A stretch of DNA of 64,000 nt from Thermoactinomyces vulgaris. GTDB taxonomy: Bacteria; Bacillota; Bacilli; Thermoactinomycetales; Thermoactinomycetaceae. The DNA is taken from positions 354,900 to 418,899 of the forward strand of contig NZ_REFP01000007.1 in assembly GCF_003688725.1 (NCBI RefSeq), in the 5' to 3' direction. This document shows positions 8,797-36,688 of the stretch, piece after piece. How positions within the stretch are numbered: the stretch's first letter is position 1; the number at the start of each line of letters is the position of its first letter. A program made the position numbers and the translations under genes. The notes beneath the pieces are model-generated. The model did no database searches and had not been told where the DNA came from. It was given only the letters and a program-made list of their open reading frames with translations.

Positions 8797-9060
8797 ATAT
8801 CTGATGTGAATGGGAAATGCGAAGACGGAGAAGAGTAGACGGATTAAAGCAGTCAGAGAGAGAAACCCTTGGCTGAAAGGTTTCTTCTGCATTTAACCGT
8901 TGAACGTCGCTCTTGAGCAGGTTGTCTGAAAGGTTGACGAAACCGTGTAAGATAACCCGGTTCCAGCCGTTATCTGGTCAGAGTGCACTAATTTTTTAAT
9001 TAGTGAATAAAGGTGGTACCGCGAAAAGACCTTTCGTCCTTTGTTGGCGAAGGTTTTTTT
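8797..9060 (+). ncRNA. T-box leader (tRNA-Val responsive) of valS
   Basis: The T-box sequence AAGGTGGTACCGCG lies at 9010-9023. Its UGGU bulge can pair with an ACCA tRNA end, as expected for tRNA-Val. Stem I features are AGTA (about 8835), AGAGAG and CTGAAAG loops, and a specifier-loop region TGAACGTCGCTC in which GTC at 8906-8908 reads as a valine codon. The terminator stem is ACCTTTCGTCC (9029-9039) with GGCGAAGGT (9046-9054) and a T-run to 9061. Uncharged tRNA-Val should favour the antiterminator and switch on valS. The leader fills most of the 404-base gap before valS. Confidence 0.93.
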
Positions 9061-27771: not shown

Positions 27772-27855
27772 GTTGTTGTTATCACCGCTCACAACAGGAT
27801 TCCAAAAGGCTTGATGCCTTTCCTGCTGGTGGCGAGTCTCTATTTAAGAGGAGGA
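27772..27855 (+). ncRNA. L21 leader (ribosomal protein autoregulatory leader)
   Basis: The region between the promoter and rplU contains ATCACCGCTCACAACAGG and a stem AAAAGGC-TTGAT-GCCTTT flanked by CAGGA/TCCTG. It resembles the L21 leader known upstream of rplU in Bacillales, thought to bind L21 and limit its own expression. The call rests on position and these motifs; the fold was not computed. Confidence 0.65.
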
Positions 27856-28998: not shown

Positions 28999-31028
<2,030 letters not shown>

Positions 31029-31030
<2 letters not shown>

Positions 31031-34628: not shown

Positions 34629-35522
34629 ATGGATAAACGTGTTGCCTATCTTGGACCTGTCGGAACGTTTAGTTATATGGCTGCAAAAGCTTTGTTCGCG
34701 CATGAAAAAGACATTCAATTCATGCCTTATGCTTCGATTCCCGATTGCCTGAAGGCCGCTCAAGAAAAAGAAGCCCGGTGGGCTGTCGTTCCGATTGAAA
34801 ATACCATTGAAGGATCGGTGAATTCCACACTGGATTGGCTGATTCACCATGTGGATCTGCCGGTTTGCGCTGAATTGGTTTATCCGATCACCCAGTGTAT
34901 CATGGGGCATCCGTCTGTCATCAACCGGGATCCGCATGAGATCAAGCGCATCTATTCCCATCCGCAGGGAATCGCCCAATGCGAGTTGACCCTCAGAAAA
35001 CGGTATCCTTGTGCCGGGTACAAGATGATGGAAAGCACGGCGCAAGCGGCGGAAATGGTTGCGGGGCATCCCGGGGAACCGTGGCTTGCCGTCGGTCCGG
35101 AAGCTGCCGCCCGAGAGTACGGGTTGCAAATCATACAGGAACATGCAGAAGATCATCCGAACAATTTTACCCGCTTTTTTGTTGTCAGCCGTGAAGAATC
35201 CTCTTCGTTCCCGGATTCCGACACCCGCAAAACCAGCTTGCAGGTCATCTTGCCTTCCGACTATCCGGGGGCGCTGTATCAAGTGTTGGCGGCTTTTTCC
35301 TGGCGCAAAGTGAATTTGACGCATATTGAGTCCAGGCCGACCAAAACGGGGCTGGGAAATTACTTCTTCTGGATCGATGCCGAGTTGCCGGTTGAACATG
35401 TCTTGATGCAGGGAGCCATCAAAGAGATTGAAGCGTTGGGATGCCAAGTTCGTGTTCTGGGGTCGTTCCCTTGTTTTTTCAAGGGAGTCGGAAAAACATT
35501 AGCGATCCACAAGAGAAGTTGA
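34629..35522 (+). CDS. pheA: Prephenate dehydratase
   Basis: A 297-residue enzyme making phenylpyruvate for phenylalanine. The catalytic domain (1-190) has YLGPVGTFSY, PIENTIEGSVNSTLD and the conserved NNFTRFFVV block. The ACT domain (about 205-285) has DYPGALYQVLAAFSW and the HIESRPTKTGLGNYFFWID allosteric motif, so feedback by phenylalanine is expected. ATG 34629 follows AAGGAG. No chorismate mutase domain is attached. Confidence 0.96.
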   Translation: MDKRVAYLGPVGTFSYMAAKALFAHEKDIQFMPYASIPDCLKAAQEKEARWAVVPIENTIEGSVNSTLDWLIHHVDLPVCAELVYPITQCIMGHPSVINRDPHEIKRIYSHPQGIAQCELTLRKRYPCAGYKMMESTAQAAEMVAGHPGEPWLAVGPEAAAREYGLQIIQEHAEDHPNNFTRFFVVSREESSSFPDSDTRKTSLQVILPSDYPGALYQVLAAFSWRKVNLTHIESRPTKTGLGNYFFWIDAELPVEHVLMQGAIKEIEALGCQVRVLGSFPCFFKGVGKTLAIHKRS

Positions 35523-35530
35523 GAAATTGT

Positions 35531-35559
35531 TTGACATCTGTAAACCGGCAGGGTATAAT
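35531..35559 (+). promoter_or_regulatory. Strong sigma-A promoter of ilvE
   Basis: TTGACA (35531-35536), 17-base spacer, TATAAT (35554-35559): full consensus. It drives the riboswitch leader. Confidence 0.88.
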
Positions 35560-35599
35560 GATTAAAAATTTATCGATAATGAATTTTCAGTTTAATCAG

Positions 35600-35745
35600 A
35601 AGGGTGCCTAGGGTTCCGTTCTTCGGTTGAAGAAGTCTGGACCGAGCGGCACCAACACCAACCGGTGTACACCGTGGGGATAAAAGCCTCCAGCGGCAGG
35701 TTCTGATTCTCAAGGATTGGAATTTGCCTCTGAGGGGCTTTTTAT
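35600..35745 (+). ncRNA. ykkC-family riboswitch (probably subtype 2a, ppGpp) with terminator, upstream of ilvE
   Basis: The aptamer closes by GGTGCC (35603-35608) with GGCACC (35648-35653). Inside are the family blocks CTAGGGTTCCG (35608-35618) and CTGGACCGAG (35637-35646). The 3' domain has ACACCGTGGGGATAAAAGCC (35669-35688). A terminator-like GCCTC-TGA-GGGGC with TTTTTAT follows (35726-35745); its 3' half can also pair with AAAAGCCTC of the aptamer, so the two folds are exclusive. The ykkC family includes guanidine (subtype 1), ppGpp (2a), PRPP (2b) and nucleotide (2c) sensors. A branched-chain aminotransferase downstream points to 2a. Confidence 0.82.
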
Positions 35746-35776
35746 CATAACATCCATTCCATAAGGAGTGTTTATT

Positions 35777-36688
35777 TTGACGGGGACTGAACGATGGATT
35801 TTCATGAATGGGGAATACAAACGAAAAGAAGAAGCATTCATTTCCGTTTTTGATCACGGTTTTTTGTATGGTGATGGTGTTTTTGAGGGGATCCGCGCTT
35901 ATGACGGAAAAGTTTTTAAGTTGAAAGAACATATTGACCGTTTATATGATTCAGCCAAATCCATTTTGTTGACGATTCCATATTCGAAGGAAGAAATGAG
36001 CCGCTTGGTTTGTGACACCGTGCGCCGGAACCAGCTCCGGGATGCTTATATCCGTTTGGTGGTGTCACGGGGAGTGGGGGATTTGGGGCTGGATCCGAAT
36101 AAATGCTCCCAATCGAGCGTCATCATTATCGCCGATCAGGTCCGGTTATTTCCCAATGAATATTATGAACAGGGAATTTCCATCATCACTGTTCCCACGA
36201 GGCGAAACATTCCCGATGCCCTGGATCCCAAGATCAAATCGCTCAATTACCTCAATAACATTCTGGTGAAAATCGAGGCCAATTTGGCCGGGGTTTCCGA
36301 AGCTTTGATGTTGAATTCTGAAGGGTATGTCGCGGAAGGATCCGGAGACAACATTTTCATCGTCAAAAACAACGTTTTATATACACCGCCCAGTTATATC
36401 GGGGCGCTTGAAGGGATCACCCGTGCCACCATTATGGATTTGGCCCGGCAAAAAGGGTATGAGGTCAAAGAACAGCCGTTTACAAGACATGATGTGTATG
36501 TGGCGGATGAAGTGTTCCTGACCGGAACGGCTGCCGAAGTCATCGGGGTTGTGGAAGTGGACGGACGAACCATTGGGGAAGGGGTTCCCGGAAAGGTGAC
36601 GAAAGAACTAAAAGAAGCGTTTGCGCAATATGCCCGCCAGGAAGGGGTTCCCGTCTACGAAAACAAAAAATTCGGAGTCGTGGGATAA
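35777..36688 (+). CDS. ilvE: Branched-chain amino acid aminotransferase
   Basis: A 303-residue class IV PLP transaminase for the last step of Leu, Ile and Val synthesis. It has VFDHGFLYGDGVFEGIRAY near the N-terminus, the PLP lysine in IKSLNYLNN (Lys about 154), EGSGDNIFIV and TGTAAEVIGVVEVDGR. TTG 35777 is chosen because AAGGAG (35763-35768) lies eight bases before; GTG 35768 overlaps that site. A single-gene unit controlled by the leader RNA. Confidence 0.95.
   Translation: MTGTERWIFMNGEYKRKEEAFISVFDHGFLYGDGVFEGIRAYDGKVFKLKEHIDRLYDSAKSILLTIPYSKEEMSRLVCDTVRRNQLRDAYIRLVVSRGVGDLGLDPNKCSQSSVIIIADQVRLFPNEYYEQGISIITVPTRRNIPDALDPKIKSLNYLNNILVKIEANLAGVSEALMLNSEGYVAEGSGDNIFIVKNNVLYTPPSYIGALEGITRATIMDLARQKGYEVKEQPFTRHDVYVADEVFLTGTAAEVIGVVEVDGRTIGEGVPGKVTKELKEAFAQYARQEGVPVYENKKFGVVG

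Follow-up and report, generated by a model that had tools for sequence, protein, structure and literature searches.

The gap between the end of pheA (position 35522) and the TTG start codon of ilvE (35777), within the 64,000-nucleotide stretch of Thermoactinomyces vulgaris DNA analysed here (the window), contains a promoter, an aptamer of the ykkC type and a terminator. We are highly confident that these elements form a single ppGpp riboswitch (ykkC subtype 2a) controlling ilvE by transcription antitermination. The parts of the leader, its subtype and the mutual exclusion of its folds were established computationally; ppGpp as the ligand and the ON direction of the response we infer from the named relatives described below.

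All elements lie on the forward strand. The promoter, of the sigma-A type (TTGACA-17-TATAAT, 35531–35559), agrees with the consensus at 12 of 12 positions; a preliminary description of this DNA had noted a consensus promoter here. At the scan threshold of 9/12, chance alone would yield 0.9 sites in the window, so the weight rests on the full 12/12 match. The transcription start is estimated near 35567. The ilvE gene (35777–36688), preceded by the ribosome-binding site AAGGAG (35763–35768), encodes a branched-chain amino acid aminotransferase, as evidenced by matches of its product to the family profiles NF006185 (500.6 bits, cut-off 363) and TIGR01122 (353.8 bits, cut-off 245.55). The TTG start is our choice; the listing of open reading frames begins the gene at GTG 35768. 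The next long open reading frame is on the opposite strand, so ilvE is probably the sole gene controlled by the leader. A six-pair hairpin, CATTCC/GGAGTG (35755–35770), encloses the ribosome-binding site; it could provide added translational control or be a chance pairing.

The whole aptamer occupies positions 35594–35708. The 5' strand of P1, GGTGCC (35603–35608), pairs with 35648–35653 at six of six positions, which bears out the GGTGCC/GGCACC closure reported earlier. The conserved block CTAGGGTTCCG (35608–35618) forms the 5' side of P1a and is followed by the P1b hairpin TTCTTC/GAAGAA (35619–35634) and by a segment (35637–35653) comprising the block CTGGACCGAGCG (35637–35648), with the diagnostic base C35647, and the P1 3' strand. 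Next come the P2 hairpin ACACC/GGTGT (35655–35668) and the P3 region (35669–35696), which includes the block GGGATAAAAGCC (35677–35688). The core ykkC fold and its conserved blocks are present in the leader, and the three blocks stand in the order given in the preliminary description. All seven P3 pairs found in relatives are possible, but only three of the seven are present in predicted folds, which speaks somewhat against the assignment. The folding z-score of the leader is −5.4, with none of 200 shuffled sequences equally stable.

The ends of the aptamer are joined by a helix that the preliminary description lacked, P0, in which AATCAGAA (35594–35601) pairs with TTCTGATT (35701–35708) by eight of eight Watson-Crick pairs. 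Because P0 belongs to the aptamer, the latter begins at 35594; the interval 35600–35745 proposed previously gave the right location, with a start too far 3'. A long intrinsic terminator hairpin with a T-run (35680–35745), the tip of which (35726–35738, with the T-run) is listed by a terminator scan, shares the P0 3' strand as part of its 5' arm. This hairpin, the competing terminator that had been proposed, excludes both P0 and P3.

Searches against Rfam release 15 returned Guanidine-I as the sole riboswitch family for the leader, at 55.5 bits (E 5.2e-9) and under the gathering score of 63. Subtyping by Rfam was dropped, and subtype models had to be built. In total, 155 loci were gathered, 76 of them matches in 40 of 61 genomes (window included) and 79 found by a DNA pattern, and grouped by their downstream genes. 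The labels derive from protein clusters and denote gene contexts, not assays; the cluster names are our reading, with one representative checked per name (ilvE, ilvB, purE, purB, purL, purK, xanthine phosphoribosyltransferase, NCS2 permease, SMR, EamA and natA-like ABC protein). Among these, L052 scored slightly below the purB cut-off, L075 was called purL from two Pfam domains, and the natA-like label rests on a general ABC match. A downstream-gene label was lacking for 22 loci; from the 133 labelled ones, two unparsable loci (L023 and L099) and L083, a duplicate of L116, were removed. The remaining 130 comprise 49 BCAA (window included), 58 purine, 14 SMR and 9 EamA loci.

Three covariance models were built from these sets. 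Of 33 BCAA rows from outside the window's family that passed a 95% identity filter, 32 were used in the BCAA model (R1), a locus with a long insert (L151) being dropped; the purine model (R2) includes 32 of 53 rows and the SMR model (R3) 13 rows. Out of the 155 loci, 50 sources were scored with all three. Comparison of subtype models had been suggested as a check in the preliminary description, and its outcome for the window is 120.9 bits with the BCAA (ppGpp, 2a) model (E 1.3e-32 over 50 sources), 79.9 bits with the purine (PRPP, 2b) model and 49.1 bits with the SMR-built guanidine-I model. As controls, all five left-out members of the window's family favour the BCAA model, and the purine model is favoured by all 22 matches in 21 purine loci that were withheld from training, some of these loci having near relatives in the training set. 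The guanidine-like loci L002, L006, L008 (almost identical to a training row) and L011 favour the SMR model, and three EamA loci weakly favour the purine model. Six unlabelled loci (L041, L050, L066, L079, L085 and L152) score best with the BCAA model, L050 and L152 by margins of 1 and 3 bits. L085 precedes ilvC, and L041 and L050 precede genes of the glutamate synthase type; both kinds of gene belong to the 2a gene set as described in PMC5912903 and PMC7266159.

A riboswitch for PRPP (2b) standing before ilvE by chance would share the fold and most of the conserved blocks, and the 2b model does find the window. Its score is, however, 41 bits below that of the 2a model, the Rfam search of the window at cut-off listed no purine riboswitch, and the downstream gene is ilvE, which belongs to the genes expected for 2a (BCAA or glutamate synthesis genes, or natA). 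Individual bases point the same way. According to PMC6031431, G96 is conserved in PRPP aptamers and not in ppGpp aptamers; judging from the residue numbers given there, it corresponds to the third base after GCC. This base is G in 58/58 purine and 14/14 SMR loci, but C (C35691) in the window, and among the 49 BCAA loci (window included) it is T in 32, G in 9, C in 5 and A in 3; the column was counted from the 5' side, and linker lengths differ among loci. Since nine BCAA loci carry G, the PRPP-type base alone is not decisive, and separation of ppGpp from PRPP aptamers by this single position was rejected as insufficient. The base opening P1, a feature chosen once the data had been seen, is G in 49/49 BCAA loci (window included) and in 0/58 purine loci. 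Taken with the scores, these observations make a PRPP riboswitch very improbable.

Position 49 bears on guanidine-I, the identity suggested by the Rfam name. As described in PMC6031431, guanidine-I aptamers have A at one position (A46/C49), where subtypes 2a and 2b have a pyrimidine. The base of the window is C (C35647). Both subtype-2 contexts are uniform in this respect, with C in 37 and T in 12 of 49 BCAA loci (window included) and C in 31 and T in 27 of 58 purine loci; the loci found by DNA pattern were preselected for C or T here, and the 46 BCAA and 7 purine loci that come from the unselected search all have C or T as well. The 14 SMR loci have A in 12, G in one and T in one. The locus with T (L092) was among those preselected for C/T and so is not counted against guanidine-I, and the 13 unselected parsed SMR loci all have A or G where the window has C. 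Although Rfam does report its ykkC-type family here, the match lies below the gathering score, the SMR-built model gives the lowest of the three scores, the leader has P0, and the gene that follows is ilvE. We regard a guanidine-I riboswitch as the least credible of the alternatives, with next to no chance of being correct. The reading as a ppGpp subtype, put forward in the preliminary description, is supported by the scores, the pyrimidine typical of subtype 2, the lack of the PRPP-specific G, P0 and the gene context.

PMC6031431 describes an end helix like P0, which the guanidine aptamer lacks and which takes part in the expression platform. Across the 32 BCAA rows, from which the window's family is excluded, two-sided changes occur in four of seven P0 pairs, and RNAalifold found P0 unprompted on the same rows. 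By covariation measures, the structure as a whole surpasses all 500 shuffles and every slid version of itself; the shuffle count does not translate into a probability, because the BCAA rows are related.

Another specificity within subtype 2, such as for nucleoside diphosphates (2c), for an unknown ligand or with a strong bias towards pppGpp or pGpp, is improbable, if somewhat less so than PRPP. The score comparison spans the 2a, 2b and guanidine-I models only, and a Clostridiales natA relative of subtype 2a is reported in PMC12373219 to prefer pppGpp about 10-fold; for pGpp, PMC10112252 indicates that no binding study with RNA effectors existed by the time of that paper. Against this, the margin of the scores favours the BCAA set, and the genes associated with 2c are NUDIX and HAD hydrolases according to PMC7266159, as opposed to ilvE here.

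The proposed ppGpp switch would operate as follows. RNA polymerase would start near 35567 and make the aptamer first. At high ppGpp (or pppGpp) in amino acid starvation, the ligand would bind P1a/P3/P0 and keep P0 shut; TTCTGATT (35701–35708) and the P3 strands would then stay in the aptamer, and ilvE would be transcribed. With the ligand absent, those bases would enter the hairpin 35680–35745 and transcription would stop. Sharing of the P0 3' strand with the terminator argues for an ON switch. In minimum-energy folds of the growing transcript, calculated for ends at every third base, P1 and P2 are always formed, and P0 has all its pairs in transcripts ending at 35708 to 35726 and is absent from 35729 onwards, coinciding with the appearance of the terminator 3' arm. 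At full length the free terminator fold (−70.3 kcal/mol) is 11 kcal/mol lower than the best fold with P0 and P1 forced (−59.2 kcal/mol), so the choice between the folds is probably made during transcription, with the ligand holding P0. PMC10687018 presents probing of growing chains for a ppGpp riboswitch of a different bacterium, in which a helix is stabilised by ppGpp against folding of the terminator; the helix named P1 in that account is taken as P0 here.

A terminator-like hairpin is found in 49/49 BCAA loci, the calls for L021 and L143–L145 resting on a short early hairpin. In 46/49 loci the terminator pairs with the P0 3' strand over at least four bases, as against 93/392 shuffled tails, which favours the mechanism; that roughly one shuffled tail in four shows such overlap counts against it. 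The overlap in the three other loci amounts to 1 base of the P0 strand in L110 and 3 bases each in L027 and L132.

Riboswitches of this kind preceding ilvE have been described previously. The ilvE RNA of Thermosediminibacter oceani binds ppGpp and pppGpp, and the ilvE riboswitch of Desulfitobacterium hafniense controls termination, as reported in PMC10112252; the latter was also used as a reporter (PMC12373219). Both are assigned to ykkC subtype 2a by Sherlock et al. (2018), as cited in PMC10112252 and PMC12373219. They share with the window the gene and the aptamer class, and D. hafniense ilvE also the action on transcription termination proposed here, but they belong to other bacteria and have had binding measured; the comparison with the window is by published description. 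The window leader therefore adds a case to a known class, and appears to be an ordinary example of it, a solo ON riboswitch of the ppGpp class controlling ilvE. A narrow search combining Thermoactinomyces, riboswitch and ppGpp found no paper, which says little on the wider literature.

Further counterparts are the pheA-2a-ilvE loci of the window's order (for example L018, L020 and L026) and L083, which have the same aptamer and the same competing terminator, with pheA upstream where tested. They differ mainly in the length of the linker from P3 to CGG, and no difference of design was seen. L083, from Paenactinomyces guangxiensis, which we take to be a member of Thermoactinomycetaceae, has the same leader as genome G010 of the window's family. 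Aptamers of subtype 2a also occur before natA-like ABC transporter genes (L025, L114, L117 and L118); the genome of L025 (G009, of the window's family) has only distant ilvE-like matches, at 37% or less.

The T. vulgaris genome encodes one Rel-type synthetase and CodY. A second copy of the 2a aptamer was not found in it, the next R1 match having 11.4 bits (E 6.1), and no 2a aptamer was found at ilvB. The leader of ilvB matches the T-box model at 76.4 bits (E 8.7e-17), under the Rfam cut-off of 93. In relatives, all seven ilvB leaders tested out of 19 (L021, L121, L122, L125, L128, L130 and L132) have a T-box behind a 2a aptamer at a relaxed threshold, all T-boxes but that of L021 being under the Rfam cut-off; at that cut-off a T-box is seen in 1/16 ilvB loci. 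These tandems match the ppGpp/T-box AND gate described in PMC9481103. The ppGpp/T-box(Leu) tandems of that report have the same aptamer before BCAA genes; in the ilvE leader of the window, in contrast, Rfam listed no T-box.

There are 17 T-box matches in the genome, 11 of them before aminoacyl-tRNA synthetase genes; the remaining six precede ilvB, proB, proC and three genes without a name at the threshold used. The window does hold the valS T-box (8813–9044, 132.7 bits) and obg (29702–31030) pointed out earlier, which in our judgement are uninformative on the ligand. A ribosomal protein L21 leader is also found in the window (27777–27849, 38.3 bits).

Control of ilvE varies among 23 genomes of the family. 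Five, including that of the window, have a 2a aptamer before ilvE; in five others a close ilvE gene has T-box leaders (two in tandem in three of them: L198, L199 and L200), six have a close ilvE with neither element at the Rfam cut-off, and seven have no close ilvE. The order pheA-riboswitch-ilvE is conserved, pheA preceding the 2a-ilvE pair in 17 of the 18 loci examined out of 26 known (the window among them), both in the family and beyond it. pheA also precedes five of the six switchless ilvE genes (L190, L192, L193, L194 and L197), where no riboswitch was detected at the Rfam cut-off. As the pheA-ilvE neighbourhood is kept in these genomes with gaps of about 40–106 nt instead of 254, the ppGpp switch was probably lost from them.

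The ilvE genes with T-boxes (L195, L196, L198, L199 and L200) form one separate clade (support 100/99) in a tree with 12 of 26 inner branches weak, and in none of the five does pheA lie within the roughly 1.5 kb examined. Replacement of the riboswitch by a T-box in place is therefore unsupported. With confidence and doubt about evenly balanced, we suggest that the family wires ilvE in several ways: some members keep the old pheA-ppGpp riboswitch-ilvE arrangement, some have retained pheA-ilvE but lost the switch, and one clade has a divergent ilvE elsewhere, controlled by one or two T-boxes.

The Guanidine-I model of Rfam catches ppGpp-type RNAs under a misleading name. Overall, the leader supports the view of a direct action of the stringent response on a biosynthetic mRNA in the family of the window, beside CodY and T-boxes, and the presence of the switch in some related loci and its absence from others provide a natural comparison. 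If the proposed history of ilvE control is true, this control would have moved between general starvation and tRNA-specific signals on a short evolutionary scale.
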